Shown: piece after piece, positions 2,967 through 37,727 of the stretch
How the letters are laid out: each line of letters opens with the position of its first letter
How positions within the stretch are numbered: the stretch's first letter is position 1
DNA from: an uncultured Clostridia bacterium
GTDB taxonomy: Bacteria > Bacillota > Clostridia > Oscillospirales > Ruminococcaceae
Length of the DNA stretch: 54,885 nucleotides
Assembly: GCA_947627205.1 (NCBI GenBank)
Contig: CANQVE010000012.1
Coordinates: 1 to 54,885 of the forward strand
Direction of reading: 5' to 3'
Translations under genes and position numbers: made by a program
Notes under the pieces: generated by a model
What the model saw: the letters and a program-made list of their open reading frames with translations, nothing else
Told to the model about the DNA's origin: nothing
Database searches by the model: none

Positions 2967-3024
2967 TTTCTAACTTTCTACCCCTTTCGGATAACCTCGC
3001 GACCAAATAACCCGACAATTACAG

Positions 3025-6641: not shown

Positions 6642-7060
6642 GCCGGAAGTCAGAGGTTGGAAGCAAGAGGCAAGAATAAGTTTTGAGCGGGGAACAACGT
6701 TTAATTTCCAAACCACAAAACGAGCGGGCGCACTAAAGTTTTTTGAAAGGGAGCTCTTTTAGAGGTTAGAGATTAGAGGTAAGAGGTTAGAGTTTGAGAG
6801 GAAAAGTGGTTTTCCACACTAAACAAACTCTAGCCTCTAGCTTCTTATTCGTGACAATAAAATAACTATTCCTCTCGAATGTTCCCAAAAATTCTTACAT
6901 CTTACATCTTACTTCTTACCTCTAGCAGGGGTTTTCCCCGCATTGCCGTTTCAAATGCAAGCATTTGAAACGGCAATCCTAAAAGAGGTTTTGAGCGGGG
7001 AAGTGCTTTAAACGAGAAAAAGCTCAAAGCGTGAAAGCGCTTTCCTTTTCGGCTCTTGTC
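6642..7060. repeat. Repeat block downstream of coaX
   Basis: Degenerate 7-bp arrays of the AGAGGTA type lie at about 6650-6675 and 6755-6800, with inverted partners at 6829-6925. A GCACTAAAGTTTTTTGAAAG piece lies near 6728-6750. The paired-hairpin module is at about 6926-7002, with stem GCCGTTTCAAATGC / GCATTTGAAACGGC. From 7060 to 7377 there is one GC hairpin (CACCCGG / CCCGGGTG, about 7087-7110), AT-rich sequence and the upstream region of the XRE gene. No gene is seen. Confidence 0.8.
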
Positions 7061-7377
7061 AGTCTATAGCACAAAATAAAAGAGCATCACCCGGACCGAA
7101 GCCCGGGTGTGCCTGTTAGAGAAGGGTATTATGAAAACGTCTGAAGATATCAGCGTTTCTTTCAAGAAATAACTGCGCGCTGTTTAAAGAATTGCTGTCG
7201 GCGAATTTTGTTCCTTTAAGTACTTTTCAAGCATATTATAGCACTCTTTTTTGGATTTGTCAAGTATTTATATCTAAATAGATAATATTTTTATCATTTG
7301 TATAATATTAGTGTCAATAATGTCAGATAAAATCTTGTCATAAAAGATATAATAGATATCAAAAAGGAGTTATTTTT

Positions 7378-21500: not shown

Positions 21501-22544
21501 TCAACCATTGTTTACGGATTTATAAAAGTCTTCAATATGCGCATAATTATAAGTTTTGCCCTTATACTCTACTTTTATTTTTTCAGCTCCTGCAAATGCA
21601 CCGTCACCGATTTCCATAATGTCGCCAAGAATTTTTACGCTTGTTAAATTTGTGCAATTTGCAAACGCAGACTCGCCGATTTCCATTATCAAGTCGCTGA
21701 TCTCTACGCTTTTTAAATTATAGCAATCTTTAAACGCCGTATCGGAAATAATAGCTATGTTGCTAGGAATAATAATACTTTCTATATCGCATTTGCTGAA
21801 TGCATTTACTCCTATGTCGGTTGCGCTTTCGGGAATAGAATATGTATTGCCTTTTGCATTAGGATAAGCTATCAAACTTGTTTTATCTTTGCTGAACAAA
21901 ACTCCGTCCAAAGAACAGAACGTTTCATTATTTTCAGAAACTTCTATACTGCTTAAATTTATACAATTTTCAAACGTTTCATTTCCTATTTCGCTTACGC
22001 TGTCGGGAATGATTATAGCTGTTAGATCATAGCATGACATAAAAGCTCCGAATCCTATGGTTTCAAGAGATTTGGACAGCGTTACGCTTTTAAGACTTCC
22101 ACAATTGTCAAATGAATAGTTTCCTATTTCAGTTACACTGTCGGGAATTTCTATACTTTCAAGTTTTTCGCAATTCTGAAAAGCATACATTTCGATTTCA
22201 ACTACCGTTTCGGGGATCACAACTTTTGTAAGATCTTTGCATTTGCTGAACGCAAACTTTCCAATACTTGTAACCCCATACGGAATTTCTATTTCTGTCG
22301 CTTTTTCTCCCTTTGCTGTAGCGCTTTCGACAATATTGTCCTTAATGTTCAGATATTCTGTACTTTCAACTATTGTCGGGGCTTCGCTTGTATCAGGCTC
22401 GGAATTTGTAGATGAATTTTCTTTGTCTGAAACAATAGAGCTGTCAGAACTGTCATCTCCTACCAGCGCATTTCTAACCGCACCAACAATTACCATAACC
22501 AGCACAATTCCTACCACTATAAATATTATTTTTTTCTTATCCAT
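21501..22544 (-). CDS. Membrane-anchored BspA-type leucine-rich-repeat protein
   Basis: Surface protein of 347 aa. An N-terminal membrane helix (about residues 5-27) without a lipobox is followed by a Ser/Asp/Glu linker (30-65). From about residue 75 onward there is an array of roughly ten LRR_5 repeats of 23-residue type with the core IP.SVTEIG..AF..C..L. Such proteins act in adhesion or binding in gut bacteria; here that is inference. ATG chosen at 22544 because AAGGAGG lies 9 nt upstream. The frame continues 28 codons further into the leader, but that part is the terminator hairpin. Expression is probably controlled by the leader at 22570-22731. Confidence 0.9.
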   Translation of the reverse strand: MDKKKIIFIVVGIVLVMVIVGAVRNALVGDDSSDSSIVSDKENSSTNSEPDTSEAPTIVESTEYLNIKDNIVESATAKGEKATEIEIPYGVTSIGKFAFSKCKDLTKVVIPETVVEIEMYAFQNCEKLESIEIPDSVTEIGNYSFDNCGSLKSVTLSKSLETIGFGAFMSCYDLTAIIIPDSVSEIGNETFENCINLSSIEVSENNETFCSLDGVLFSKDKTSLIAYPNAKGNTYSIPESATDIGVNAFSKCDIESIIIPSNIAIISDTAFKDCYNLKSVEISDLIMEIGESAFANCTNLTSVKILGDIMEIGDGAFAGAEKIKVEYKGKTYNYAHIEDFYKSVNNG

Positions 22545-22569: not shown

Positions 22570-22731
22570 AAAAAATGCGCAGCCGAAGCTGCGCACCGTA
22601 AAAACGCAAGCTCCGATTGCTGCGACACAATTTTCCCGTCAACTTAGAAAAAGCACACGAAAATAGAGCCCACACTTTTACCATGGTAAAAGTGTACACT
22701 TTTTCTAAATTGACTATTCAATTGTGTCGCA
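22570..22731 (-). promoter_or_regulatory. Riboswitch-like leader of the LRR gene, copy A
   Basis: Read on the minus strand. GCGACACAATT at the predicted transcript start pairs with AATTGTGTCGC (22720-22730 with 22622-22632). Inside lies a 16-bp stem (GTCAATTTAGAAAAAG with CTTTTTCTAAGTTGAC) capped by a perfect ACACTTTTACCATGG palindrome arm. Then comes GCAGCAATCGGAGC (22610-22623), followed by a terminator with a UUCG loop (TGCGCAGC / GCTGCGCA, 22576-22595) and TTTTTT. The GCAGC and CGGAGC parts can instead pair with GCTGC and GCTTCG of the terminator. The same layout precedes the LRR lipoprotein gene (36472-36630). I do not recognise the class. Confidence 0.8.
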
Positions 22732-22736
22732 AGTAA

Positions 22737-22765
22737 ATTATAGCATACTTTTATACATTTGTCAA
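22737..22765 (-). promoter_or_regulatory. Promoter of the LRR gene leader
   Basis: On the minus strand, TTGACA (22760-22765) and TATAAT (22737-22742), spacer 17 bp. The first stem strand begins 6-7 nt after the -10. Confidence 0.9.
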
Positions 22766-24258: not shown

Positions 24259-25032
24259 TCATTTTTTCACGGCAGTAAAAAACAGCCTCGGAAATCTGAA
24301 AATGACTTCTCCGTTTTTCTGCTTTGTATATTCCTTTTCAAGCTGTGCGCGTATCTCACCGAGAAAAACTTCGCTTTCGGCATCGGAGAGCGCTTCAAGA
24401 TACGGCTTCAGGCCCGTTGACTTATACCATTCTATTATGCTTTCAGCGCCCGCCATTCTGTGGAAATAAACCGTTCTCCACATTTCAAAATCGTCCGTAA
24501 GCTCCGACAGAATATCGAAATATTCTCCGTCGGAAAGCGTGTAAAAAATACGCGTGTTTGTAAATTTTCCGCGCCATTTTCCGCTGTTTACGGTCTTTGC
24601 TATAATTTTATGTATAGGCTCTTCAAACTGAACGGGTATCTGAACGGCTAAAACGCCGTCTTTTTTCAGCATTGAAAACAAGTTCGGGATAAGCCGAGCG
24701 TGGTTTGGTATCCATTGTAAACAAGCGTTTGAAAATACAACGTCAAATTTTTCTTCAAACTCTTTAAGCTCCCCGCCTGCGTCAAGACTTATGAACTCGC
24801 ATTCGGGAACGTTTTTCCGAGCGCTTTCGAGCATATTTTCACTGTTGTCCGCGCCGATAATATGCGCATTCGGAAAGCGATCTTTAAGCACTTTCGTGCT
24901 GTTTCCGGGACCGCACCCTATGTCGATGATTTCGCGCGGAGCTTTTGATGTTATCCTCTCTGCAAGGTCAACAGAGGGCTGTGTCCTCTGCGCCTTGAAC
25001 CTCAAGTATTGCTCACTGTTCCAATCACTCAC
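24259..25032 (-). CDS. Class I SAM-dependent methyltransferase, Tam-like
   Basis: 257-aa Rossmann-fold methyltransferase. Motif I is DIGCGPGNST (about residue 37), motif II GADNSENML, motif IV FSNACLQWIP. The sequence WNSEQYLRFKAQRTQP at the N-terminus and the overall length resemble trans-aconitate 2-methyltransferase. The substrate is not proven. It overlaps phoH by 4 bp (ATGA) and lies 9 bp before ybeY, so it is co-translated within a housekeeping operon where it is not usually found. Confidence 0.85.
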   Translation of the reverse strand: MSDWNSEQYLRFKAQRTQPSVDLAERITSKAPREIIDIGCGPGNSTKVLKDRFPNAHIIGADNSENMLESARKNVPECEFISLDAGGELKEFEEKFDVVFSNACLQWIPNHARLIPNLFSMLKKDGVLAVQIPVQFEEPIHKIIAKTVNSGKWRGKFTNTRIFYTLSDGEYFDILSELTDDFEMWRTVYFHRMAGAESIIEWYKSTGLKPYLEALSDAESEVFLGEIRAQLEKEYTKQKNGEVIFRFPRLFFTAVKK

Positions 25033-26015
25033 TGTCTTTTTCTCCTGTTTCTTCTCTCGTCCTGCTCGGCATATTCGGCATACGCTTTTACAATATCCTG
25101 AACGAGCCTGTGACGGACAACGTCCTTTTCCGTAAACAAATTCTGCCCTATGTCGTCAACATTTTTGAGAATTTTCAGCGCCTCTACAAGCCCCGACTTT
25201 TTCGTTTCGGGGAGATCTATCTGCGTTACGTCGCCCGTTATTACCATTTTCGAGTTGAACCCGAGACGCGTTAAAAACATTTTCATCTGCTCGCGGGTTG
25301 TGTTCTGCGCTTCGTCAAGGATTATAAAGCTGTCATCGAGAGTTCTTCCGCGCATATACGCGAGCGGTGCGACTTCTATAACTCCTCTCTCGTGGAGTTT
25401 TGTAAAGCTCTCCTGTCCGAGCATTTCAAAAAGCGCGTCATAAAGCGGTCTTAAATACGGATCTACCTTGTTCTGGAGGTCGCCGGGGAGAAAACCGAGC
25501 TTTTCGCCTGCTTCTACGGCGGGGCGGGTGAGAATTATTCGCTGAACTTGCTTTTGCTTAAAGGCAGTAACGGCGAGCGCAACAGCAAGATACGTTTTTC
25601 CCGTACCCGCAGGACCTACGCCGAAAGTAATGGTGTTTTTTCGGATAAGGTCGCAGTATTTCTTCTGCCCGACGGTTTTCGGCTTTATGGGCTTTCCTGC
25701 GTATGAAACGCAGACGCAGTCGCCCGAAACAGACGCTATTTCATTTTCCGAGCCCTCGTTTACCATTGCGATTGCATACCTCACTTGCTGTTCTTCTATG
25801 GGTTCATTGCGGTCGTAGTAACCGCAGAGGGATTTAACGGCTTTTGAGGCGTTGTTTACGGAAAGCTCGTCCTCTCCGCAGATCTTGACTTCCTCGCCGC
25901 GGGAGAAAATGGTGACGGAAAATGCCTTTTGAATAAGGTTTATGTTTTTGTCGAGGTCGCCGAATACTGCGCTTATCTGCTCGGCACTGTCTGTAATTAT
26001 GGTTTTTTCAATCAT
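25029..26015 (-). CDS. phoH: PhoH-family ATPase (YbeZ type)
   Basis: Cytoplasmic ATPase, probably RNA-related and a partner of YbeY. 328 aa from the ATG at 26015, chosen because the family N-terminus starts here and AGG lies 8-10 nt upstream. A KH-like N domain is followed by Walker A GPAGTGKT (about residue 134), Walker B IILDEAQN (about 230) and MVITGDVTQIDLP. First gene of phoH-methyltransferase-ybeY-dgkA. Confidence 0.95.
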   Translation of the reverse strand: MIEKTIITDSAEQISAVFGDLDKNINLIQKAFSVTIFSRGEEVKICGEDELSVNNASKAVKSLCGYYDRNEPIEEQQVRYAIAMVNEGSENEIASVSGDCVCVSYAGKPIKPKTVGQKKYCDLIRKNTITFGVGPAGTGKTYLAVALAVTAFKQKQVQRIILTRPAVEAGEKLGFLPGDLQNKVDPYLRPLYDALFEMLGQESFTKLHERGVIEVAPLAYMRGRTLDDSFIILDEAQNTTREQMKMFLTRLGFNSKMVITGDVTQIDLPETKKSGLVEALKILKNVDDIGQNLFTEKDVVRHRLVQDIVKAYAEYAEQDERRNRRKRQ

Positions 26016-26057
26016 AAATAACCTATCCTTTTTTGACCGCGCCGCAAGGTGCGACAC

Positions 26058-27069
26058 GAAAGTTTTTTGAAAGGGAGCCCTGCTAGAGGCTAGAAATTAA
26101 GAGGCAAGAGGCAAGAATAAGTTTCGAGCGTAGAACCGCTATTCCGTTTAAAACCGCCTAACGGGCGGGCGCACGAAAGTTTTTTGAAAAGGGAGTCCAG
26201 AGGGAAAAAATTTTTTTCAAAAAATTTTTGCCCTCTGGTCGCGGCGAAGCCGCGAAACGGCGCTAGCTAGGCGCTAAAGGGTGCGGGGAAAACAAGAGTT
26301 TTCCCCGCATTGCCGTTTTAAAAACCTTGTTTTTAAAACGGCAATCCTAAAAGGGGTTTTGAGCGGAAAACTACCTTTAAAATGCATTTACATTAGAGCG
26401 GGAAAGCAAGAGGGGGAAACCTATTTGTGGTTCTTTTCAAACGTTGTTTCTTTAGATAACGTTATCTCGCCCTATCCTGCTAGAGGTAAGAGGTAAGATA
26501 TAAGAGGTAAGAATTTCGGGGAACTCTTGGGAAATAAAGTTTTTTGGCTTTCGGAGAAAGAGGTAAGAAGCTAGAGTTAAAACCGAAATGTTATTTGCTG
26601 AATAGGACGTACAAATCCCATTTGTTGTTCTTTTCAAACGTTGTTTCTTTAGATAACGTTATCTCGCCCTATCCTGCTAGAGGTAAGAGGTAAGATATAA
26701 GAGGTAAGAATTTCGGGGAACTCTTGGGAAATAAAGTTTTTTGGCTTTCGGAGAAAGAGGTAAGAAGCTAGAGTTAAAACCGAAATGTTATTTGCTGAAT
26801 AGGACGTACAAATCCCATTTGTTGTTCTTTTCAAACGTTGTTTCTTTAGATAACGTTATCTCGCCCTATCCCCCTGCCCCCTTTCCCGAGGGGAAAGGGG
26901 GAGAGTGCGGGGCGCTGGCGCGCCCCGCGCCCCGCCTAGGTGGCTTCGCCCCCGCTCTTCTCGCAATGCGCAAATCGAGCGTTTGAGTTGGTTCGGGGTT
27001 GATAAGGTGCGGGCGGGCAATTGCCTTTCAGCTATTACTGAATACTGTACCCTGTCTACTGTCAACTGA
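26058..27069. repeat. Large repeat block with 197-bp tandem duplication
   Basis: No gene is seen. In order: a 7-bp array (about 26085-26120); a CACGAAAGTTTTTTGAAAAG piece followed by a long A/T hairpin closed by CCAGAGGG / CCCTCTGG (about 26172-26240); the paired-hairpin module (26281-26371). Then two apparently identical 197-bp units (about 26428-26624 and 26625-26821) plus the start of a third, the CCCTATCCCC / CCCTTTCCC hairpin module (about 26867-26935), and a CTGTCAACTG-type 7-bp array at 27030-27070. The two 197-bp units encode identical 61-codon frames that are not genes. Confidence 0.85.
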
Positions 27070-28407
27070 CTACAATCCACGCTCTTTCAGCTCCGCCACT
27101 AATTGCACATAAAACTCCCTGACGTCAAATCCCTTTATGTCCTCGCGGTTCAGGTCTATCATGTCGGCGTGGGTTATGCCTCGTTTTCCTTTCGGATAGA
27201 GCTTTGTCCACTTTTCTCCCCATTCGGTGGCTTCGATAGCCACAAGCCCGTCGTTGTCGCCGTCGTATTTCTTTACGACGGGATAGCTTATGTTAAGCGG
27301 GAAACGCCCGCTTCTTCGGCTTTTAGCCTTTGAGCCTACCGACTGATAGTACACGTCGGGGCTGTCGGGTACGTCTTTGTTGAACTGCTCGCAAAATCCC
27401 GCAGTAAGCTCCTTTACTGCCGACATAAAATCGGGAGAGGCGTCGCCCAGCGTAGAAAAGATGTTGTTGTATGTCTTTTCAATAAAACTCTTCAGCTTGT
27501 CGGGCGCCTGCTCTAAAAGATACTCGGCAAAGATACAGCCCCTGTGCGGAGTGTTTATTGTCGTAAGCGACGCAACATACTTGTCACAGCCGAGCTTTGA
27601 TATCGCATAGCGCGAATCAAGCCCGCCCTTTGAGTGCGCGATAATGTTCAGCTTCCCGCAGCCCGTTTTCGCGCAGATGTCCTCTATCTTTTTCGCAAGC
27701 TCCCTTGAGCTTTCTTCTACCGAAAGTGCGCTCTGCTGTTCGCCGTAGAAAATTTCCGCGCCGTTTTTCTGTAATTCCGCGGGTATTCTTCCCCAATAGT
27801 TAAGCAGTTTGCTGTCGCGGAAAAACACTCCGTGTACAAAAAGTATCGGGTATTTCGTCGCGCATATCCGCTCGTCTTTCCTGCTTTCGTTGAGCCTTGC
27901 TTTTTCACATTCAAACTTACATTCCCTGTGCGTTTTGACATATATTATCATCAGCATTACAAGGTTTACGGGAAAAACAAATCCGAACGCTATACCTAAA
28001 ACTCTCAGCTTTATGCCGAGCTGAACGGAAGTCAGATATACCCTTATTATGCCGTTCCAGAATATTATCGCTTCGGCGACTACAAGCAGGACGAGCTGGA
28101 AAATATACTTCCCGTAATCGTCATTTCCGTTTACAAGCTCTGCAATGCTTATTGTCACAAATACGGCGGAAGCTATACAGGTCATAAAGAAAAACAAAAT
28201 AAGCTCCGCGCCGTCGCCGAGAATTCTCAGTCTGAAAGTCGGGTATTTTTCTGCGGTCGGGAAAACGTTTATGACAAAAAACAGTATCCCCAGCACCATC
28301 ATCACGGAAATTTTCGGCAAAATCGGCACATTGTCAAAAATAAACGGACAGTTTACTGCGGCGGTAAGAATGATGAAATTGAGAAAACGTAGTAAGATTT
28401 TTTTCAT
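27070..28407 (-). CDS. Membrane-anchored alpha/beta hydrolase, probable lipase
   Basis: 445 aa in two parts. The N-terminal 150 residues form four or five membrane helices. The C-terminal half is an alpha/beta hydrolase with LFVHGVFFRD (oxyanion region, about residue 188) and the nucleophile elbow AHSKGG (Ser about residue 254), and a late DNDGLV with a candidate Asp and THAD with a candidate His. This resembles triacylglycerol lipase/PGAP1-like esterases. The substrate is unknown. A consensus promoter lies just upstream, and the ATG has AGGAG 7 nt before it. Monocistronic. Confidence 0.82.
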   Translation of the reverse strand: MKKILLRFLNFIILTAAVNCPFIFDNVPILPKISVMMVLGILFFVINVFPTAEKYPTFRLRILGDGAELILFFFMTCIASAVFVTISIAELVNGNDDYGKYIFQLVLLVVAEAIIFWNGIIRVYLTSVQLGIKLRVLGIAFGFVFPVNLVMLMIIYVKTHRECKFECEKARLNESRKDERICATKYPILFVHGVFFRDSKLLNYWGRIPAELQKNGAEIFYGEQQSALSVEESSRELAKKIEDICAKTGCGKLNIIAHSKGGLDSRYAISKLGCDKYVASLTTINTPHRGCIFAEYLLEQAPDKLKSFIEKTYNNIFSTLGDASPDFMSAVKELTAGFCEQFNKDVPDSPDVYYQSVGSKAKSRRSGRFPLNISYPVVKKYDGDNDGLVAIEATEWGEKWTKLYPKGKRGITHADMIDLNREDIKGFDVREFYVQLVAELKERGL

Positions 28408-28439
28408 GACATACTCCTGAATTTATAGATTATATTAGT

Positions 28440-28468
28440 ATTATACAACCTAATGTAATATTTGTCAA
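28440..28468 (-). promoter_or_regulatory. Promoter of the lipase gene
   Basis: On the minus strand, TTGACA (28463-28468) and TATAAT (28440-28445), spacer 17 bp. Confidence 0.9.
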
Positions 28469-28530
28469 TCGTCTTGCCGAATAAAGATCGCTTAAAATTC
28501 ACATTATAGACCTACGAAAAGAGGTGCGAA

Positions 28531-28662
28531 ATGAATTTTATAACTTGCGGAGAAAACTGCCGATGGCAAAAAGACGGACTTTGCGCGCTCGAGGACCTTT
28601 CGCGCGCGTGCCTGTCGCTCAATCCCTCGTCAAAGTGCAGATATTATGAGGAGAAATTCTGA
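28531..28662 (+). CDS. Small Cys-rich protein, DUF1540-like
   Basis: 43 aa with five Cys: ITCGENCRWQKDGLC, then SRAC and SSKCRYY. The Cys spacing and the KDGLCAL stretch resemble the short Cys-rich proteins common in Clostridia (DUF1540 and similar), which probably bind metal; function unknown. GAGGTG lies 6-7 nt before the ATG. It is transcribed away from the lipase and ends at a strong terminator. Its compact reading frame and ribosome binding site argue that it is real. Confidence 0.7.
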   Translation: MNFITCGENCRWQKDGLCALEDLSRACLSLNPSSKCRYYEEKF

Positions 28663-28667
28663 ATAAA

Positions 28668-28718
28668 AACAAGAAAAGCCGTAACTTAAAGATTTTCTTA
28701 AAGCTGCGGCTTCTTGTT
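28668..28718 (+). terminator. Two-way terminator between small Cys protein and phage cassette
   Basis: AACAAGAAAAGCCG pairs with CGGCTTCTTGTT around an AAAG/CTTT inner arm, with T-rich sequence on both outer sides. It serves the + gene and the minus-strand phage cassette that ends at 28727. Confidence 0.8.
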
Positions 28719-28726
28719 ATTTTCTG

Positions 28727-30031
28727 TCAATTTATTTCCGTCAGTTCATATCTCACCTGCAATGCGTGCTGATCCGTCTTTTCTATCGGCTCGGAAAGAT
28801 TGTTTATCGTCGCCAGATAGTCCATTCTCACCAGGAGAAAAAGGTTCTGACCGTAGCTTGCCGCGAAAAACGGAGCGTGCATGTTCTTGTTTTCGTGAAG
28901 CCTGTAACCGTCAAACATCGAAATGTTCGGAAGATATACGGGCTCGTCGTTTTCAAGCGTCACATAGCACAATGAGCCTGTCGGGCTGTATTTTGAGCAG
29001 AGCCAGATCTTGTCGTCCTTTATAAACATTCCCGTAGTCGATCCGAGCTGAATGGTTTTATGTTCCGCGAGCGTCCCGTCAAGCTCGTAGATATACAGGT
29101 CCGAATAATACGAGATGTAAATTCTTCCCTTATAAAACGCCGCGGAAGTATAATAATAGCTTGTCTGTGAAAGCTCCGTTACCATGGGAGTTTCTACCAT
29201 AAACTCTACATTATAGGTATCTATATCCAAACATGCGAGCCTTATTGCCATTTTTGAATTCGTGGGATTGTTCAGGTCGAAAATATAGAGCTTGCCCTCT
29301 TTTTCGTTCGGACACAAATATACGGGATCCAGCGGGAGCGTTATTTGCTTTGTCTCTTCAAGAACAGCCGTATGATATGTGTTCAGATGTATCGCGTCGG
29401 GATCGGGCGCGCGGTATTTGTAAATTGTTATTTTCGTGTTTGAGGTATTATATTGACAGTAATAATGATATTCGCTCCCTCGGCTCATTACATAGCTTCC
29501 CTGAAACGAACCCAGCATCGCATAAGACTTTCCTGTCGCTCCGTTTGCAACGTCCAGCGCATTTGCAAACGTAACGCCCGCCGAAAAACTTGAACCGCGG
29601 TTTCCCGAATGAATGCTCGAAAGCCCCGCGCAGTTTATCGTTCCTATCGCCTTTTCGGGCGCAAAATCCCATACGAGCCTATAGCCGTTTTCTATAACGC
29701 CCGAAGCGCTCTCGTTAAATGTTCCGCGCTTCGGATCCGTGCCTGTATAAGCCGAACCCGCCGTTCCCGTTATTCTGTACCTTTCGTTCATAAAATAATC
29801 GTCTTTCCTTTCGGGGATATTCTCCCCGAAAAGTACAAGTCCGTGCAAAAGATTTTTATGAATGGGAAGATAGCTTGCCATAAAACTTGTGTTGTTATAA
29901 TCAAAGAGCACCGTTTTCGGAAAGTTGAAAATATCTTCCAAAACATTTGTCAGCATATTGTGCTCTTCGCGCTCATCAACTATCTTTCCCGTATCCTTGT
30001 CTTTAAGAATAAAAGTTGTTTTTCCCTGCAT
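28727..30031 (-). CDS. Phage tail fibre/receptor-binding-like protein
   Basis: 434 aa, last gene of the phage cassette. The opening KTTFILKDKDTGKIVDEREEHNM resembles an N-terminal attachment strand seen in phage tail appendage proteins. The rest is beta-rich, with repeating Tyr/Gly/Asp strands that would suit a propeller-like or receptor-binding domain (for example GKLYIFDLNN and GRIYISYYSDLYIYE). No signal peptide. It starts 5 bp after the upstream gene, with GGGAGAG before the ATG. The role is inferred from position and composition. Confidence 0.6.
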   Translation of the reverse strand: MQGKTTFILKDKDTGKIVDEREEHNMLTNVLEDIFNFPKTVLFDYNNTSFMASYLPIHKNLLHGLVLFGENIPERKDDYFMNERYRITGTAGSAYTGTDPKRGTFNESASGVIENGYRLVWDFAPEKAIGTINCAGLSSIHSGNRGSSFSAGVTFANALDVANGATGKSYAMLGSFQGSYVMSRGSEYHYYCQYNTSNTKITIYKYRAPDPDAIHLNTYHTAVLEETKQITLPLDPVYLCPNEKEGKLYIFDLNNPTNSKMAIRLACLDIDTYNVEFMVETPMVTELSQTSYYYTSAAFYKGRIYISYYSDLYIYELDGTLAEHKTIQLGSTTGMFIKDDKIWLCSKYSPTGSLCYVTLENDEPVYLPNISMFDGYRLHENKNMHAPFFAASYGQNLFLLVRMDYLATINNLSEPIEKTDQHALQVRYELTEIN

Positions 30032-30035
30032 TTTT

Positions 30036-31535
30036 TCACTCTCCCTCGTTTGTTGTTATGGAAAATCCGTCGTTTATGCCGCAGACCGAAAATTTGTTCT
30101 GCATGTGCAATGTTTCAATGTTATCGTATATGACTTCTCTGTCATGCAGTTTTTCGTTCCCGCCCGCCGCTCCCCTGCAAACAAGCGTTGCTTCAAGCGC
30201 TCCGCTTTTTATTGTCATCTCTCCGTCTATCGCCCTCATCGTTACAATTATTTCGTTGTTTCCCCTCGGAATATCCTGCACAAGAAAATAAAAATGCAAA
30301 AGATCGTCCTCATGCTCGCATTTATGAACTGTCTCGCGCACAAGCTCGCCGTTTAAATAAGCCTTTATTCCGACAGACGATACGCTTCCGAGCGTAAAGT
30401 TTATGTCCGTCTGGGCGAATGTTCCGCTTGCCCTTGTAGTAAATTGAAAGTCCGCAACTGCCGTTTCTTCCGAGGATAATATAATGTCCTCGCTGTTTAC
30501 GTTTTTAAGGCAAATATTGCCCAAAGAATTTTTAAGCTGTTCAAGAACAGCGCTAAGGTCGTCCTGATGCTCCGCCGCGTCCGTATAGGTGCGTATTTTT
30601 GAATAAAGCCGAGCCGTAAAAGCTCCGTCATAGTGAAATTCTATTTCGCTCACCGCTATGGGATAATATTTCTTCTGCGGATCTCTGAAGAAAATATGAT
30701 CTCCCGATTCGAGATAAGGCAGTCCCTGCATTTGTATATCTGCGCCGTAAAATAACATCATTGAAAAAACGCCGATAAAATTTTTAGCATAGTTTCTTGT
30801 CATAAACGGATTGTAAACTTCCAAGGTTATAAGCTCTCCGCCCTTTCCCTCTTCGATTATCTCCTTTCCGTTGTCGGCTATGATATGTTCAATTTTCGAC
30901 GGAGACATCGTTCTGCTGTAGTCCATGCAGTTTTCGTCCGTTAAGATAAAATTGTTCATTTGCGAATATATCCGCACATTGAGTTTTCCGTCTCTGTCAA
31001 ATTTAACATTCCCGCAGGCAACTCCCGCGATATATCCCAGCATGTCTCTTACAGTAACGCCTAGCGGAATTTCGGATATCTCGTATTTGTAGATGTCATG
31101 GCTCAATTCCAGCCCGTAATTTTCGCAGATATCTTCGAGCATCTCCATTACATTTGTCGGCGCGGTTATTCTCGGGATATATTCCATTTCGAGAGAATAC
31201 ATTTTGTCATAGCATATAATAGACGCATAGTTTCCGCGGACATATCTTCTCGCCACATAAAAAACGCCGAGCGGACACCATTCTTCGCCGTCAAAGCTAA
31301 TATACGGTCTTACCTCGTCATGCACTTCAAGCTCTCCCGAATATCTCACGGAAAAAGCAAAGCGGTTTGAACAGGTAGAGCCTATCGTATACCAATTCGG
31401 GTGGATAACGTCGTCAAAATCAAATTCGACAATCCTGTCGTCAAGAAAGACTTCGTTTCCCGCTGTTATCTTACACCAGACCTCTCTGCCGTTGCTTTTT
31501 GAAAGCTCAATAAATTTATCGGAAACCTCTACCAA
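30036..31535 (-). CDS. Phage tail hub/baseplate-like protein
   Basis: 499 aa. The N-terminal half looks like a siphophage tail-tip or hub protein: beta-rich, with the DIIHPNW-type opening region, a middle APTNVMEMLEDICENYGL stretch and GVTVRDMLGYIAGVACGN, a pattern of hub proteins that bind the tail end. The C-terminal 180 residues are a separate beta domain, possibly for assembly or host contact. TTG start with GAGGTG 7 nt upstream. It lies 9 bp after the preceding gene. No tape-measure gene precedes it. Confidence 0.65.
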   Translation of the reverse strand: MVEVSDKFIELSKSNGREVWCKITAGNEVFLDDRIVEFDFDDVIHPNWYTIGSTCSNRFAFSVRYSGELEVHDEVRPYISFDGEEWCPLGVFYVARRYVRGNYASIICYDKMYSLEMEYIPRITAPTNVMEMLEDICENYGLELSHDIYKYEISEIPLGVTVRDMLGYIAGVACGNVKFDRDGKLNVRIYSQMNNFILTDENCMDYSRTMSPSKIEHIIADNGKEIIEEGKGGELITLEVYNPFMTRNYAKNFIGVFSMMLFYGADIQMQGLPYLESGDHIFFRDPQKKYYPIAVSEIEFHYDGAFTARLYSKIRTYTDAAEHQDDLSAVLEQLKNSLGNICLKNVNSEDIILSSEETAVADFQFTTRASGTFAQTDINFTLGSVSSVGIKAYLNGELVRETVHKCEHEDDLLHFYFLVQDIPRGNNEIIVTMRAIDGEMTIKSGALEATLVCRGAAGGNEKLHDREVIYDNIETLHMQNKFSVCGINDGFSITTNEGE

Positions 31536-31544
31536 AATATCACC

Positions 31545-31886
31545 TCATTTCTCTTTAAATTCGAGCTTTACGCCGCCGTACATTTTAATGCCGTTTACGG
31601 AAATATACTCGGGCGCAGGCTCGTTCATAACATGAAACTCCTTTTCGAGATAACCCTCGGGAGCGTCAAACCCTACAGTCACAAATATCTGCCCGCAGTT
31701 TTCCCTTAATACCGCAAGCTCCTGCCCCGTCATAGGCTCAAATGTTGCTTCTATGCAGTATTTTCTCCTCACAAGGTCAATAAGCATATCCCCTTGGGTG
31801 TTGTAGTTTATGTCCGTGCGCCTAAGCTCGCGTTTTATATCCAGCTTTTTGCAGTTAAACGCAGTATTGCCGATAGTTATTGTCAT
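31545..31886 (-). CDS. Small phage tail-associated protein
   Basis: 113 aa from the ATG at 31886, which has GGGAGG 7 nt upstream; a longer start at 31901 overlaps that site. It resembles short tail-tube-adjacent proteins of siphophages: ITIGNTAFNCKKLDIKRE at the start and VNGIKMYGGVKLEF at the end. The exact role is unknown. It lies between the small acidic gene and the hub-like gene. Confidence 0.65.
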   Translation of the reverse strand: MTITIGNTAFNCKKLDIKRELRRTDINYNTQGDMLIDLVRRKYCIEATFEPMTGQELAVLRENCGQIFVTVGFDAPEGYLEKEFHVMNEPAPEYISVNGIKMYGGVKLEFKEK

Positions 31887-31904
31887 AAAACGCCCTCCCA
31901 TATA

Positions 31905-32060
31905 TCAGCGAAAACCCGTTGTTTTCTTGTCGTTGAGCTGGCGTTCAAGCTCCCTGTTTCCGAGGCGAATGAGCTTTGCTATGTTATATCCATCCTCGTC
32001 CGAAGCCTTGCCGAGCTGTTTGTCCTTTACGCTCTCGGTCTTTTCGTTGTTTTCACTCAT
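31905..32060 (-). CDS. 51-aa phage cassette protein
   Basis: Charged small protein (MSENNEKTESVKDKQLG... ending KKTTGFR) with GGAGG 7 nt before its ATG, 2 bp after the upstream gene's stop and 18 bp before the next start. Tight packing supports it as a real gene. I do not recognise it; a role in head completion or as a small chaperone is only a guess. Confidence 0.65.
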   Translation of the reverse strand: MSENNEKTESVKDKQLGKASDEDGYNIAKLIRLGNRELERQLNDKKTTGFR

Positions 32061-32062
32061 TT

Positions 32063-32398
32063 TTATTCCTCCTCAGCATTTATTTTGTCAGCAGTTATCT
32101 TTATGTGGTGGGGCGAATTTGCTTTATATTCCCTCACCTTTACTATTTCAAAAACTTCTCCTCTGAATTTTATCCTCATGCCCGCCTCAAATTCGGCGTT
32201 CGGATATGAATTCGCGCAGTCATACCAGACAAAAAGCTCGGTCTTTTCCCGCGGAATATTATAATTGTCCTCTATTGCGCTTACTTTCTCCGCTCTGACG
32301 TTCGATATCCTTGTTTCCGTCCAACCGGTCCAGCCGTTTTCGGTCGGCTTCATAAGCGTTATCTCGTCGCCAAGAAGAACATTCGGTATCGGGTTCAT
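32063..32398 (-). CDS. Phage head-completion-like protein
   Basis: 111 aa, beta-rich (GMRIKFRGEVFEIVKVREY). Position and size fit a head-closure or minor capsid protein of an SPP1-like head. It overlaps the upstream connector gene by 4 bp (ATGA), so the two are coupled. Family identification is tentative. Confidence 0.6.
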   Translation of the reverse strand: MNPIPNVLLGDEITLMKPTENGWTGWTETRISNVRAEKVSAIEDNYNIPREKTELFVWYDCANSYPNAEFEAGMRIKFRGEVFEIVKVREYKANSPHHIKITADKINAEEE

Positions 32399-32784
32399 TC
32401 GCAGACCTCCGTTCCCGTATAAAGACAGCCCGCCGCTCTCAAAAGCCTTATGACCGTAAAATTCGTGTCAAACGGCTCATCGGCAGAGCTTTCGCTTTCA
32501 GCGGTGCTCTGATACGAAAAATCCCCGATAGTTACCTTTTCGGTTTTCAGTTCTTCGTTTTCCGTTCTAAGCTCGTTTTCCTTGCGCATTATAGCATTCG
32601 CCTGAAACGCGCATGCCTGCTTTACATAATCAGCCGCGGCTCCTCCCGCAAGCGCAGTGGGAATTGCCTTTCCTCCGCTAAGCGCGTTCAGAACAAACTC
32701 CGCACGCTTTATGCAGTCCGACGCAAGCTCCTCGTCAACCGCCCGAAAACCCATTTCCTTAAATTCATCAACCGTTATTATCAT
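32395..32784 (-). CDS. Phage head-tail connector-like protein
   Basis: 129 aa, helical, with the typical opening TVDEFKEMGFRAVDE, a central helix pair rich in Ala, and a C-terminal FTVIRLLRAAGCLYTG stretch. This matches the shape of gp6/gp15-type head-tail adaptors, which dock under the portal. It lies 295 bp after the capsid gene, with a repeat insertion in that gap. Confidence 0.65.
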   Translation of the reverse strand: MIITVDEFKEMGFRAVDEELASDCIKRAEFVLNALSGGKAIPTALAGGAAADYVKQACAFQANAIMRKENELRTENEELKTEKVTIGDFSYQSTAESESSADEPFDTNFTVIRLLRAAGCLYTGTEVCE

Positions 32785-32824
32785 ATATTATGCAGTTCCT
32801 CTCCTTTTTCATCTTTAAATTGCG

Positions 32825-33050
32825 CGGGCGCGTTGGCAGTATACAGTTTACAGGGTACAGTGTACATCATAGGTATCCGCTTTGCGGATATTGTTTAGAT
32901 TGTTATTAAGTCTAAAGGTTTTTGAACTTACCCATTAAAGGTTGCTCGTGTGCTTGTTGTCTAAAAACAATCTGAATAATGTCCGCGATAGCGGACAACA
33001 TTCTACTGAATACTTTACACTTTTCACTTTACACTGTATACTGCCGTCCC
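32825..33050. repeat. 7-bp-type repeats inside the phage cassette
   Basis: GCAGTATACAGTTTACAGGG at about 32836 and an inverted counterpart (ACTTTACACTGTATACTGC type) at 33020-33045 flank AT-rich sequence with TCCGCTTTGCGGAT and GTCCGCGATAGCGGAC hairpins. These are the same words as in the host intergenic blocks. No gene is seen. Confidence 0.7.
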
Positions 33051-33078
33051 GCTTAAACCTTAATGGCTAAAACTACTA

Positions 33079-33978
33079 TCAGTCGGCGCCTGTTCCTGCC
33101 GAGCAAACGGCTATCGCCGCTTTCTTGTTTTCGGGGATAAAGAGGTCGTGATATTTGCGGTAGTCTATATCCCATGCGTCGGCAAATTGGTTCTGCTCGG
33201 GAGCGATTATCTTTACATTGTCGGTCTTTGAGACTGCAATGGGCGCGTCCTTGGGGCAGATTATCCAATTTATCTGAGAAGCTCCGCCCGCCTCGGAAAA
33301 GCCGTCTGTCGCGCTGAAAGTGTACTTGCTCTTCATTCTCGAAGAGGGAACGGGAATTATCGCCGCTCCGCAGATCGTCTTTACGTCAAGCGAAAGCTCG
33401 CCCTGCGTAAAACTTCCGCTGTCGATAGAGTGAGTGACCTCGCTCGAAAGCATGAGCATATCATAGACCGAGCGCGCCATTGTCACAACAAGCTCTCCCT
33501 CTCCGCCTACGGCCTCGCGCACCGCGGTTATCTGACCGATAAGAGTCGAAAGAACGGTGTCCTTGTCGGGAGTGTAGGAATATTTCGTTATCCCTGCCGC
33601 TTCTCCGAGCTTTGAATAACGGTAAGCGTCAATTTCGGGGATCACCTTTGTGCGCTGAAACTCGGAAGCTACATTCGCCGCCGCAAGCCCGAAACTGCTT
33701 TCGTCAACATCGAGCGCGTCAATGCGAAAACGTCTGCCCCTGTCCATGCTCATTTTCATGGTTTCATAAGCGTATGTTACCGCACCGCCCGTATAGCCGT
33801 CGTCGCGGTCGTAATTTGCAAGACCTACAAGCGTTACTTTCGGTATCTTTATCTCGTTTCCTCCGCTGTAGATGACTTGAGAGGCATTGTCCTCCATCCA
33901 GCCCGAGGTAGATCCCTCGGTTATCTGCTTGTCAAGCTCTTTCTGAAAAACCTTTGCATATTCAATTGTATTTGCCAT
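33079..33978 (-). CDS. Phage major capsid protein
   Basis: 299 aa, HK97-fold type judging by size, position after a scaffold gene, and features such as the opening TIEYAKVFQKELDKQ, DRGRRFRIDALDVDE (about residues 94-108), a TKVIPEIDAYR helix, and a C-terminal KIIAPEQNQFADAWDIDYR with a DLFIPENKKAAIAV strand. Strong AAAGGAG ribosome binding site. No protease gene adjoins it, consistent with the scaffold-dependent, non-cleaved assembly seen in SPP1-like heads. Confidence 0.82.
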   Translation of the reverse strand: MANTIEYAKVFQKELDKQITEGSTSGWMEDNASQVIYSGGNEIKIPKVTLVGLANYDRDDGYTGGAVTYAYETMKMSMDRGRRFRIDALDVDESSFGLAAANVASEFQRTKVIPEIDAYRYSKLGEAAGITKYSYTPDKDTVLSTLIGQITAVREAVGGEGELVVTMARSVYDMLMLSSEVTHSIDSGSFTQGELSLDVKTICGAAIIPVPSSRMKSKYTFSATDGFSEAGGASQINWIICPKDAPIAVSKTDNVKIIAPEQNQFADAWDIDYRKYHDLFIPENKKAAIAVCSAGTGAD

Positions 33979-34117
33979 AATAAAATTACTCCTTTCAAAA
34001 TTTAAACTTCATATCGCTTCGGCTCGGCAGCAACTGTTTCGCCTAAAATTCTTGTTCGGATAATCTCCGTAATTCGCGTCGTTGCTGCTGTAAAGCCGAA
34101 ATATATAATCCCGCCCG

Positions 34118-34168
34118 CCCTCCGCTGTTGTCAGTTGACAGTGTACACTTTACATTGTACGCTGCGAA
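34118..34168. repeat. CAGTTGACAG-type 7-bp array before the capsid gene
   Basis: The words TTGTCAGTTGACAGTGTACA, CTTTACA and TTGTACG fall on a near-7-bp rhythm in the 193-bp gap between the scaffold stop and the capsid gene. The rest of that gap is unremarkable apart from the capsid ribosome binding site. Confidence 0.65.
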
Positions 34169-34171
34169 GCA

Positions 34172-34597
34172 TTATCTTTTCGCGAAAATGTTTCGTATCG
34201 CCGCAAAGCCGTCGCCGTCGCCCGAACCGCTTGCGGAGAATTTCGGAACTTCACGGCGGACGCTCCTTAAATGCGGATAAGCCTCGGCTATCTCCCGCGC
34301 GGCTTCTTCGGGAGTTTTCCCCGCCTTGCATATCCCGCGCGCAAGCTCCGCTCCCTCGGAAAGTTTCTCCTTGGCAATCCCCGCAAGAAGCAGTTGGAGC
34401 CTTGTCTCCGTGTCCGAGAGCTTTTCGCTGAGCTCCTCTATGCGCTTCAATTCGGCGGTATCTGCGCTTTCCTGCTCCGTTTTCTGCTCCGATTTCTGCT
34501 CGGCATTTTCATTCTGTTCAACGCCTGCCGTGCTTTCGGAAATACCGTTTTTTTCACTCTCGGCAGTTTTATTGTTTTCAGTCACTTCAGTCTGCAT
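34172..34597 (-). CDS. Phage scaffolding-like protein
   Basis: 141 aa from the ATG at 34597. It is highly acidic and helical: a Glu/Gln/Lys-rich N-terminal half, a coiled-coil stretch around ELKRIEELSEKLSDTETRLQ, and a short C-terminal Ala/Gly/Phe segment. This matches phage scaffold proteins (GP20/DUF4355 type) that sit between portal and capsid genes. It overlaps the portal stop by 11 bp. A longer upstream frame lies wholly within the portal gene and is not used. Confidence 0.75.
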   Translation of the reverse strand: MQTEVTENNKTAESEKNGISESTAGVEQNENAEQKSEQKTEQESADTAELKRIEELSEKLSDTETRLQLLLAGIAKEKLSEGAELARGICKAGKTPEEAAREIAEAYPHLRSVRREVPKFSASGSGDGDGFAAIRNIFAKR

Positions 34598-35954
34598 TAA
34601 AATCCTCTCTTTCCATTGCTTTTGCTTCATTGAGCGAAACGCCGTAAATTTCCGAAAGCGCTCTCGCTCTTGAAATAAGTCCGCTTGAATATAAAGCTCT
34701 CGCACGCTCGGACTTCGCATTGTCGTCCTCGCACACCCCGTCCGCAAAGCAGAACACTGCGTCCTCCGACGCGCTCTGCGAAAGCTCACCCGACATCTTT
34801 CCGAGCAGGCATATCTTTCTTGCGACTTCTTCAAGTCCTCTCGCTATCAGCTTTCTGTAAAATGTAGCTGTGCGGTAGGTTCGGCTGTTTCTGCTGACAA
34901 CTTCGGTGGCGGTGCGTATCGTTCCGTTTTTGTAGGACAATGCTCCCTCCGACAGCCCTACCTGCATACAAAGCAGGTCAAGCAGCTCTCCGAGCGCCTC
35001 GATATGCTCCGTTACACGAAGCTCGGCGGTGTTGTCGGCAATTTTAAGGTCCTCCGTGTCGGAAGTTGAAAATGCCTCGAACACTTCGTCGTTCACGTCA
35101 AAATAACGCCTAAGCTCTCCTTTTTCGTCATACTCTCCGCGCACCGCATAGCTCGGCACAATAATGCGCTTTTTTCCGAGGACAAATTCCCTCGAAAGAC
35201 TGTCAAAGACAATGTCGAGCGATTTGAGAGTGTCCTCCGCTCCCGCAAAGACCGATGTTCCGAGCGCTCCGCATTGCTTTACAGTGCCCGTGCCTGCGCG
35301 AAAATAAACGAACAGCGGTTTTTCAATGCCGTTTATCACCGTTCTTTCCGCAAGCCCGGGATATACCTCCTTTAGCTCGGCTTCAGAACCGCTCTCGCGA
35401 TAGAGCTTGTTTTCAATAATAAGCCCCTCGTCCGAAAGCGTTTGCGTTTCCGCGAGAACATAGTTCTTGCCGTCCGCGCAGACTGCCGAGCCGAACGCTC
35501 CCGCATAAATGCCGCCTGCGTCCCATTTTGTCGGGACGAACCTGTCCGCGGGTACAAAATCGAGCTTAACGCCTCCGTCATAGTAGACCTTTATTGCCCC
35601 GCCGCCAAGCGCAAACATCTTTTCGGTGAAGTCTGCGAAGCGTTCGGAAAAATTGTTGTCGGAGAGGACTTTCCGAATGAACTGTGCGGTCTCCTTGTCG
35701 GCGGAAGTTACTCCCGAACTTTCGGTAAAACAGAGCCTTGAAAGCTCCGCGCAGACTGCCTTTGCCGCACCGAGCGACGCTACTTTTCGCATACCGCCGC
35801 TGTTCAGACCGCCTTTTCTGACATAACGCCAGCTTCCGCCGCCATTGTAGATGTCTTTCCATTTGGCGAGGTCGCCCGAATAGAATTCCGAGAGAGCGCC
35901 CGTGCTTGCCAGCCTGTTTCTTTTGAACAGCAGATCCATAAGACTCAAATTCAT
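34587..35954 (-). CDS. Phage portal protein
   Basis: 455 aa, SPP1 gp6-like portal. It opens with a WKDIYNGGGSWRYV stretch, then KAVCAELSRLCFTE, a FAEKMFALGGGAIKVYYDGG-like region (seen as KMFALGGGAIKVYYDGG), VPADRFVPTKWD, and a long C-terminal helix region with SRNSRTYRTATFY. GGAGG lies directly before the ATG. First gene of the structural cassette; no terminase gene lies upstream, only host repeats. Confidence 0.82.
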   Translation of the reverse strand: MNLSLMDLLFKRNRLASTGALSEFYSGDLAKWKDIYNGGGSWRYVRKGGLNSGGMRKVASLGAAKAVCAELSRLCFTESSGVTSADKETAQFIRKVLSDNNFSERFADFTEKMFALGGGAIKVYYDGGVKLDFVPADRFVPTKWDAGGIYAGAFGSAVCADGKNYVLAETQTLSDEGLIIENKLYRESGSEAELKEVYPGLAERTVINGIEKPLFVYFRAGTGTVKQCGALGTSVFAGAEDTLKSLDIVFDSLSREFVLGKKRIIVPSYAVRGEYDEKGELRRYFDVNDEVFEAFSTSDTEDLKIADNTAELRVTEHIEALGELLDLLCMQVGLSEGALSYKNGTIRTATEVVSRNSRTYRTATFYRKLIARGLEEVARKICLLGKMSGELSQSASEDAVFCFADGVCEDDNAKSERARALYSSGLISRARALSEIYGVSLNEAKAMEREDFNAD

Positions 35955-36437: not shown

Positions 36438-36466
36438 TTGACAAATAGCGCGGGTTGTGCTATAAT
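36438..36466 (+). promoter_or_regulatory. Promoter of the LRR lipoprotein leader
   Basis: TTGACA at 36438-36443 and TATAAT at 36461-36466, spacer 17 bp, followed 5 bp later by the first stem strand of the leader. Confidence 0.92.
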
Positions 36467-36471
36467 GCAAA

Positions 36472-36630
36472 TGCAACACAACTGAATAACCAAATGGAAA
36501 TGTATACATTTTTACTGTTCGGTAAATTTGTATGCTCTATTTCGTATACCTTTCTGTTTGGGAACGAGTTGTGTTGCAGCAATCGGAGCTTGCATTTTTA
36601 CGGGTGCGCGGCTTCGGCTGCGCACTTTTT
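36472..36630 (+). promoter_or_regulatory. Riboswitch-like leader of the LRR lipoprotein, copy B
   Basis: TGCAACACAACT (36472-36483) pairs perfectly with AGTTGTGTTGCA (36567-36578). Inside, CCAAATGGAAATGTATAC pairs with GTATACCTTTCTGTTTGG with few mismatches. A TTTAC...GTAAA hairpin follows, and a GCTCTATTTCGT segment is shared with copy A. GCAGCAATCGGAGC (36576-36589) precedes a terminator with UUCG loop (GTGCGCGGC / GCTGCGCAC, 36604-36625) and TTTTT. The last bases of the closing stem overlap the segment able to pair with the terminator's GCTTCG and GCTGC. A 104-nt stretch then leads to the gene. Confidence 0.82.
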
Positions 36631-36734
36631 ATTTATGGTAAAATTCAAATTACAGAATTTGAAAGTGGTTGTGGTATAATTAAAATAGGCAATTAAAGCC
36701 TGCAAATTTTATTGACAATTATAGGAGGACAACA

Positions 36735-37727
36735 ATGAAAAAAGCAAAAATTTTATCGGCAGTATTAGCGGCGGCGCTGTTATTGTCGGGGTGCAATAAT
36801 AGCACTGAAAATTCAACCCCACAGCAGAGCAATGTTACAGACAATTCAAGCAGTTCTTCGCAAAATAGTTCATCTTCTTCCAGCTCACCTGAAAGTAGTT
36901 CGTCTGAAAGCAGCTCGTCCGAAATAACCGAAAGTTCTTCAAGCTCCGCTGTCAGCAGTTCAGAAACGGAAAGCAGTTCGGTTGAAAGTTCTTCAAGCGC
37001 AGGGGCTTCAAGTTCTAATCCTGCAAGTTCTTCAAGTAAGCCTGCTAGTTCATCAAGCAAGCCTGCTAGTTCATCAAGTAAGCCTGCTAGTTCATCAAGC
37101 AAGCCTGCTAGTTCATCAAGTAAGCCTGCAAGTTCTTCAAGTAAGCCTGCTTCAAGCAGTTCAAAGCCTGCAAGCTCGTCCACACCTGCAAGCTCGTCAA
37201 TTGCGCCTGAAAGCGGCACGGTGATAATTCAAGGCAAAGAGTACGATATTGAAACAACAACGGAAATTGTTTTAGAGCCTGTTGATTCAAATGATTTACC
37301 GCCACTTGATAATGAAGCGTTGAAAAATGTCTGGAAATTGAGAAACCTAAAAAAATTACGGATCGGTAACTATGGAATAGTCAATCATGTGACAAGCCTT
37401 AGCGGAATTGAAAATTTGCAGAATTTAGAAGAGTTTGAAATTTGCGCCAGCGATATACAAGATGTTTCTCCTCTTGAAAAACTTAAGAATTTAAAAATTT
37501 TGTCATTATACCACAATGACGAAGTTGTTGATTATGCTCCCGTCAGCAAATTGACCAATTTGACTTATTTAAGTATATTTGGACGAACAATCAAAGATAT
37601 TTCTTGTTTTGCAAATCTTACACAATTAACAGAGTTACAACTTCATTCTAACGAGCCTCAATTAAATCCTGAAGATGTTGAAGCTCTAAGGAAAAAATTG
37701 CCGAACTGTAATATAATTGCAGGCTGA
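36735..37727 (+). CDS. LRR lipoprotein with Ser-rich stalk
   Basis: 330-aa exported lipoprotein. Signal peptide with lipobox LLLSGC (Cys at about residue 21). Residues 25-155 are almost only Ser, Glu, Pro, Ala and Lys, ending in seven tandem SSSSKPA heptads (21-bp DNA units, about 37018-37165), a wall-spanning stalk. From about residue 165 comes a leucine-rich-repeat domain with LRR_4-like repeats of about 22 residues (SLSGIENLQNLEEFEI, DVSPLEKLKNLKIL, DISCFANLTQLTELQL). A binding or adhesion role is inferred. AGGAGG precedes the ATG. Expression is likely controlled by leader copy B. Confidence 0.9.
   Translation: MKKAKILSAVLAAALLLSGCNNSTENSTPQQSNVTDNSSSSSQNSSSSSSSPESSSSESSSSEITESSSSSAVSSSETESSSVESSSSAGASSSNPASSSSKPASSSSKPASSSSKPASSSSKPASSSSKPASSSSKPASSSSKPASSSTPASSSIAPESGTVIIQGKEYDIETTTEIVLEPVDSNDLPPLDNEALKNVWKLRNLKKLRIGNYGIVNHVTSLSGIENLQNLEEFEICASDIQDVSPLEKLKNLKILSLYHNDEVVDYAPVSKLTNLTYLSIFGRTIKDISCFANLTQLTELQLHSNEPQLNPEDVEALRKKLPNCNIIAG

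Follow-up and report, generated by a model that had tools for sequence, protein, structure and literature searches.

A promoter-linked leader element mainly before envelope-like protein genes of Clostridia: a widespread family of probable transcription attenuators and a probable orphan riboswitch

Introduction

The window studied here, a stretch of 54,885 nt from an uncultured Clostridia bacterium, raises the question of what a structured leader, bounded by its own promoter-like sequence and terminator, does before a lipoprotein gene with leucine-rich repeats (LRR), and to which signal it might respond. From the letters alone, an earlier note had read this leader (copy B), with a partner elsewhere in the window (copy A), as a riboswitch-like transcription attenuator, and the comparative sequence analysis reported below supports that reading. 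With moderate confidence, we regard the element as a transcription attenuator that is linked to a promoter, forms a widespread family and most likely represents an orphan riboswitch; its kind would be a known one (transcription attenuator, probably riboswitch), and the class is apparently new.

Results and Discussion

Two copies in the window

The two copies and their parts, named as used throughout, are the following.

36438..36466, + strand: promoter of copy B, -35 TTGACA at 36438-36443, -10 TATAAT at 36461-36466, 17-nt spacer, ending 4 nt 5' of the element
36471..36630, + strand: entire leader element of copy B, by DNA similarity and covariance model (R2, 138.2 bits)
36472..36483, + strand: P1 5' strand of copy B, a perfect 12-bp stem with 36567-36578
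36485..36488, + strand: J1/2 of copy B, AAUA, its AUA part nearly invariant family-wide
36490..36507, + strand: P2 5' strand of copy B, outer part 36490-36500 with 36551-36561 (RNAfold), inner GUAUAC 36502-36507 with 36544-36549
36508..36515, + strand: P3 5' strand of copy B (switch strand 1), pairing imperfectly with U; RNAfold extends P3 into P2
36522..36538, + strand: U of copy B (strand 2), P3 3' strand plus bulge GCUCU, candidate partner of the P3 5' strand or of D
36534-36545, + strand: GCUCUAUUUCGU of copy B, a segment named in the earlier note and confirmed in place
36539..36543, + strand: remaining 3' bulge of copy B, AUUUC, U-rich in the family
36567..36578, + strand: P1 3' strand of copy B, partner of 36472-36483
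36576-36589, + strand: GCAGCAAUCGGAGC of copy B, likewise named earlier and confirmed in place
36584..36601, + strand: D of copy B (strand 3), CGGAGCUUGCAUUUUUAC, candidate partner of U (OFF) or of the terminator 5' arm and loop (ON)
36604..36630, + strand: predicted intrinsic terminator of copy B (strands 4 and 5), 36604-36612 with 36617-36625, C(UUCG)G with UUCG loop, U-run 36626-36630
36735..37727, + strand: gene behind copy B, Ser-rich lipoprotein of 330 aa with LRR_4 repeats, start codon 104 nt 3' of the terminator
21501..22544, - strand: gene following copy A, encoding 347 aa with a hydrophobic N-terminus, its start codon 25 nt 3' of the terminator
22570..22732, - strand: leader element of copy A; read 5' to 3', U 22682-22663, D 22616-22598, terminator 22596-22576
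22737..22765, - strand: promoter of copy A, -10 at 22742-22737, -35 at 22765-22760, 17-nt spacer, 4 nt 5' of the element

The sequence features that had been described for copy B were all found in place, and both copies fold far better than shuffled sequence (z-scores of -6.81 for copy B and -8.71 for copy A, with 0 of 200 shuffles as good for each). The gap of 104 nt between the copy B terminator and its gene exceeds that of most other copies, and an extended -10-like sequence, TGTGGTATAAT, lies within it at 36670-36680, so that transcription from a second promoter might avoid the attenuator. Phage-like genes (portal, major head, tail protein and PhoH-like; PHROGs) on the opposite strand occupy 24259-35954 (-), immediately upstream of copy B, as an apparent prophage to which the LRR lipoprotein gene may or may not belong. 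A third candidate element at 7017-7137 (-), with an E-value of 0.017, was dismissed after inspection of its sequence.

Anatomy and promoter of the family

From 5' to 3', the element is ordered as promoter, P1, J1/2, P2, P3, 3' bulge, P2', P1', about 5 nt, D, terminator, U-run and ribosome site. P1 has at least 12 bp in the family, the AUA of J1/2 (columns 22-24 of alignment A5) is present in 58, 58 and 56 of 59 copies, and P3 is A-U rich, with a 3' bulge of the form CUCU-AUUUUC; P2 is variable in sequence, with mean arms of 24.7 and 23.4 nt (sd 2.9 and 2.5) and larger insertions in some distant members. Segment D, CGGAG..UGCAUUUUU, lies just 3' of the closing stem P1 and starts about 5 nt after it. 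Upstream of 126 of 137 copies stands a TTGACA/TATAAT pair that departs from these hexamers at no more than 3 positions; shuffled sequence gives 21 of 137. In 110 of the 126 promoter-bearing copies the -10 hexamer ends exactly 4 nt 5' of the element, a position from which the transcript would be expected to start at P1. Extra sequence within P2 was seen at loci L090, L092, L095, L096, L098, L102 and L105, where matches extend over 190-218 nt and the core is largely kept.

Pairing and the proposed strand exchange

Among 78 copies from the genus and family, 28 of 34 pairs are compensatory and covariation reaches 0.366 against 0.179 after shuffling (0/500); in the inner P2 helix of these copies, 5 of 5 pairs are compensatory. 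In 59 copies from the order and class, P1, P3 and the terminator together have 98.0% of cells paired and 19 of 31 pairs compensatory, with a covariation of 0.321 against 0.159 shuffled (0/500) and at most 0.069 in slid registers; the terminator helix alone is paired in 100% of cells (7 of 9 pairs compensatory) and P1 in 99.2% (8 of 12). As is generally looked for in riboswitches, the alignments describe a 5' leader that precedes genes and whose structure is conserved and covaries.

The earlier note had placed before the terminator an 11-bp antiterminator interrupted by a bulge, of which one part stands. The pairing of D with the terminator 5' arm and loop is formed in 92.0% of cells of the 59 copies, with 7 of 12 pairs compensatory and a covariation of 0.348 against 0.281 shuffled (0/500); the GCAGC:GCUGC half, tried on the same copies, covaries weakly (89.1% paired, 1 of 5 pairs compensatory, 0.114 against 0.097 shuffled, 11/500 as high) and was dropped. 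Neither did the stem P1 prove to exclude the antiterminator, as had been supposed, since RNAfold shows P1-P2-P3 and the antiterminator together when copies A and B are truncated in the terminator loop. The alignments and folds point instead to a competitor that had been missed, namely U, the P3 3' strand with the CUCU bulge, which would take the place of P1 in the switch.

The pairing of D with U is formed in 93.8% of cells of the 59 copies, with 34 double-changed cells against 14.5 in shuffles and a covariation of 0.197, where shuffles give 0.145 (0/500) and slid registers no more than 0.096. Eleven of the 59 copies have an A at U column 127, and every one of them has a U at D column 209. By other measures the signal is smaller: 'further pair types' do not rise above shuffles (412/500), 13 of 500 shuffles reach the count of 'pairs with a change on both sides', and the pair 133-203 is formed in just 37 of 59 copies. 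Each copy's own strands also fit one another better than strands exchanged among copies, with -16.15 against -13.07 kcal/mol (sd 0.21) for U:D and -13.84 against -12.29 kcal/mol (sd 0.17) for D and the terminator arm (0/5000 each; n=134, three of the 137 copies being left out for a short U or D), and the ten copies of the genome to which the window belongs behave alike (U:D -17.82 own, -15.47 permuted, 0/5000); these shuffle and permutation statistics retain common descent. The covariation signals are partly linked, because U is a partner common to D and the P3 5' strand, and the antiterminator makes use of D as well. On this evidence, alternative helices are supported by covariation, and the two partners of D (U and the terminator 5' arm) appear mutually exclusive, as in the expression platform of a riboswitch.

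For copy B, the helix energies are -12.0 for P3 with its P2 extension, -16.9 for D:U, -13.3 for the antiterminator and -17.5 for the terminator. At full length, the minimum-energy fold combines P1-P2-P3 with the terminator in copy B and with the antiterminator in copy A; the copy B terminator is formed in this prediction without D:U, a pseudoknot of a type that RNAfold cannot score. Since D lies close to P1 and U across P2, D:U would require the RNA to bend sharply at J1/2 or to open in part.

The chain of P3 5' strand, U, D, and the 5' and 3' terminator strands, with its alternative pairings, yields two consistent states. P1-P2 would display the hairpin P3 and the CUCU(AUUUUC) bulge. In the ON state, P3 would be intact (1:2) and D would hold the terminator 5' arm and loop (3:4), so that RNA polymerase reads through; in the OFF state, D would pair with the P3 3' strand and bulge (2:3), which leaves the terminator free to form (4:5). 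The choice would be biased by a diffusible signal that binds the P1-P2-P3/bulge region and is probably a small molecule of the cell interior, and as to the sign of regulation, a ligand-OFF switch through stabilisation of D:U is favoured. At one locus (L080:401-521, +), before a lipoprotein gene, the element is without most of P3 and the bulge and keeps P1, D and terminator, so that nature offers here a case in which the role of U could be examined.

The same helices could also serve an attenuator with no dedicated ligand, which would sense Mg2+, temperature, polymerase speed or elongation factors, or fix a low level of read-through into surface genes. Such a device would agree with the closeness of the mean duplex energies (P3 -11.0, antiterminator -13.8, D:U -16.2 and terminator -15.6 kcal/mol); however, mutually exclusive helices are kept by covariation across the order and class samples, and fixed attenuation would presumably need merely a weak terminator, so that we consider this explanation distinctly improbable.

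Distribution

In its own genome, the element occurs in 10 copies by DNA similarity, and covariance model R1, built from these copies, returned the identical 10 places; a deeper search with the broader model R2, built from 78 aligned copies, gave 11 matches. Of the 43 genomes searched in the genus, 26 have it according to R1, with 97 matches in all. Beyond the genus, counts are lower bounds because at most seven candidates per genome were scored and filters were stricter: at least 48 of 396 genomes and 27 of 126 genera in the family sample (R1), at least 144 of 394 genomes and 73 of 168 genera in the order sample (R2), and at least 100 of 391 genomes and 57 of 223 genera in the class sample (R2), with the own genome as sole match (1/398) in the phylum sample of 398 genomes among the candidates scored. 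The homologue search that the earlier note had proposed has returned many homologues with covariation in the genus, family, order and class samples. In 40 element-bearing genomes, picked mostly for high copy number, a deeper search found 4-30 copies per genome, the highest numbers being 30 (G1054), 28 (G1020) and 24 (G839). For alignments A3-A5, 174 matches less 9 antisense ones (the element is palindromic) and 9 duplicate or weak ones left 156 sense copies; alignment A4 (75 loci) excludes weak and most long-insert family loci.

A search with the copy B lipoprotein found relatives in two uncultured records ('Clostridia bacterium' and 'Clostridium sp.'), and in one of these, L166, an element at 2820-2974 is followed at 3001 by the start of such a relative (37% identity). 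Copies were also seen in two unannotated human-faecal 'Bacteriophage sp.' records (MT835845.1, 2076-2230; MT837627.1, 2228-2346), which may be true phage or host DNA. From the two faecal records and the two uncultured relatives, we infer that the element may be associated with the gut. A phage origin was considered and rejected: on viral contigs one sequence pattern gave 0 matches and a second gave 3, none upheld by R2 at 1e-4. Plasmids searched with one element copy gave no match.

Downstream genes and tandem modules

Of the 156 sense copies, 138 are followed by a called open reading frame (ORF), which starts 14-40 nt 3' of the terminator in 85 and within 110 nt in 115; behind the other 18, no ORF satisfied the length and Shine-Dalgarno rule. 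The family's place before genes, its promoter-like sequence and its predicted terminator are read directly from the loci. A hydrophobic N-terminus was predicted for 92 of 127 distinct downstream proteins against 49 of 194 other ORFs of the same loci (Fisher 6e-17), and a lipobox-like motif, by a crude rule, for 43 of 127 against 9 of 194 (Fisher 4e-12), the 194 control ORFs possibly containing some spurious ones. The surface-protein target that had been guessed from copy B holds, on predicted protein features, for the family at large, whose downstream proteins are mostly envelope-like.

Pfam and NCBIfam searches covered 119 of the 127 proteins (excluding L044, L046, L073, L075, L080, L099, L103 and the longer reading of L139). 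LRR_5 (BspA type) was found in 24 of these, LRR_8 in 24 and LRR_4 in 12, in sets that may overlap, together with CAP, copper amine oxidase N-terminal, CotH, GH9 and AMP-binding domains. The copy B product itself, with LRR_4 and internalin-like repeats, resembles internalin-like and BspA-like LRR proteins, a likeness of product and not of RNA that stays at the level of repeats (53.4 bits against an NCBIfam cut-off of 1600). No biosynthetic or transport gene dominates downstream, and the genes consequently give no clue to a metabolite.

At eight tandem loci, promoter-like sequence, switch and terminator are repeated as full units, three in L171 and L175 and two in the other six. In L171 the three units are not identical to one another in sequence, nor are those of L175, and in each locus they stand before one called ORF; no ORF was called behind the tandem units of L173 and L180. 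Between its two units, L173 carries a piece resembling the start of the downstream sequence, from which it would appear that modules have probably spread by duplication with their gene. As an exception to the envelope trend, elements at L073 and L074 (tandem) and at L072 and L075 (single) stand before a short non-envelope gene, which by eye we take to be ribbon-helix-helix-like.

Part of this evidence could be read as a small RNA gene, that is, an RNA of about 160 nt acting in trans and only incidentally followed by genes. Promoter and terminator do bound a complete unit, each tandem copy carries promoter-like sequence of its own and intact genes are missing between the units, and the 18 copies with no called ORF behind would fit. 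Against it stand the short distance to the next ORF in most sense copies, the strong bias of the downstream proteins to envelope-like types and an antiterminator for which a stand-alone small RNA has no obvious use, and we hold this explanation to be very unlikely. Still less credit is due to a mobile MITE-like repeat with the P1 arms as terminal inverted repeats, which we judge extremely improbable: it would account for the many copies per genome and for the module duplications, L173 with its gene-start-like piece included, yet the arms vary among copies within one genome and covary, conserved parts lie outside the repeat, and the promoter distance and the placement before genes are regular.

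Candidate signals and relation to known systems

If the element is an attenuator of the orphan riboswitch type, as we favour, many envelope-protein genes would be switched together by its signal. An RNA-binding protein, such as a global regulator acting on P3 and the bulge or on D, might instead be the trigger of the same attenuator. Such a protein would be in keeping with the plain stem and its asymmetric bulge, with the many unrelated genes and with the tandem arrangement, and the four domain families profiled leave room for others; none of those looked for is, however, universal in element-rich genomes, and we consider a protein trigger rather unlikely. Proteins with CAT_RBD were found in 0 of 27 element-rich, 3 of 23 comparison and 4 of 14 control genomes; CsrA in 3 of 27 element-rich genomes (not found in 24) and 3 of 3 comparison genomes; and ANTAR proteins in 18 of 27 element-rich (absent in 9), 3 of 3 comparison and 0 of 14 control genomes. 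GGDEF proteins were found in 20 of 27 element-rich and 18 of 23 comparison genomes; the 7 element-rich genomes in which none was found at E<=0.001 include G1054 with its 30 copies, and single absences are no proof because the genomes are 94-98% complete. Together, these absences make c-di-GMP and BglG-type, CsrA and ANTAR proteins unlikely as the universal partner.

Accordingly, a BglG/LicT ribonucleic antiterminator and a CsrA target were rejected on the CAT_RBD and CsrA counts, and c-di-GMP as universal signal on the seven element-rich genomes with no GGDEF protein found and on the lack of any match to the models of its class I and II riboswitches, which we take to be RF01051 and RF01786. 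Ribosome-mediated attenuation was also set aside, as an upstream ORF of at least 5 codons preceded by a Shine-Dalgarno sequence occurs in only 19 of 137 copies (a raw count with no shuffled baseline).

Trp-type attenuators alternate between helices 1:2, 2:3 and 3:4, and the element likewise has a chain of alternative helices choosing between antiterminator and terminator; unlike them, it has upstream ORFs in those 19 of 137 copies only, and its promoter puts the transcript start at P1. T-box riboswitches are multi-copy terminator/antiterminator leaders of Gram-positive bacteria, which the element resembles in this respect, whereas it has no Rfam match and amino-acid and tRNA-synthetase genes lie outside the 25 commonest families behind it.

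The closest parallel is with c-di-GMP riboswitches. For C. difficile strain 630, 12 class I and 4 class II c-di-GMP riboswitches are predicted, which turn transcription OFF or ON ahead of genes for motility, adhesion and the cell surface (PMC11477304), and 347 doublets and 12 triplets are given for class I (PMC9481103). Like these, the element is multi-copy, occurs in tandem and stands before surface genes (PMC11477304; PMC9481103); it differs in having no Rfam match and in the element-rich genomes with no GGDEF protein found. Because of this resemblance, a second messenger or a metabolite is our leading guess for the signal. A bolder version, possible and put forward tentatively, is that the element is the RNA receptor of a novel signal, perhaps a second messenger, which would set the surface-protein repertoire genome-wide through up to 30 promoter-switch cassettes per genome, each working by P3/U/D strand exchange. 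As the element is present in about a quarter of the class-sample genomes, mainly before envelope proteins, it may represent an unrecognised input for surface remodelling, and the question of its ligand is approachable with a defined RNA of about 160 nt and termination as read-out.

With regard to known RNA families, cmscan against Rfam 15 at gathering scores gave nothing over the elements in the entire window or in 20 diverse loci, in agreement with the earlier statement that copy B matches none of the riboswitch classes considered there. At permissive E-values (copies A and B and the divergent loci L138 and L073), sub-threshold matches alone appeared, the best being to a microRNA family (E 0.006, 25.3 of 80 bits). 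No description of the element was found in the accessible text of the literature, including PMC11109978, PMC8632094, PMC2864571, PMC8040213, PMC11477304 and PMC9481103, a scope outside which lie supplementary tables and the 2017 set of '224 candidate structured RNAs'; in its accessible part, PMC8040213 reports thousands of candidates, whose tables are outside the comparison made here. Among the loci, a Gut-1 RNA (RF01706) was observed at L142:1905-1976 (-), about 245 nt upstream of an element.
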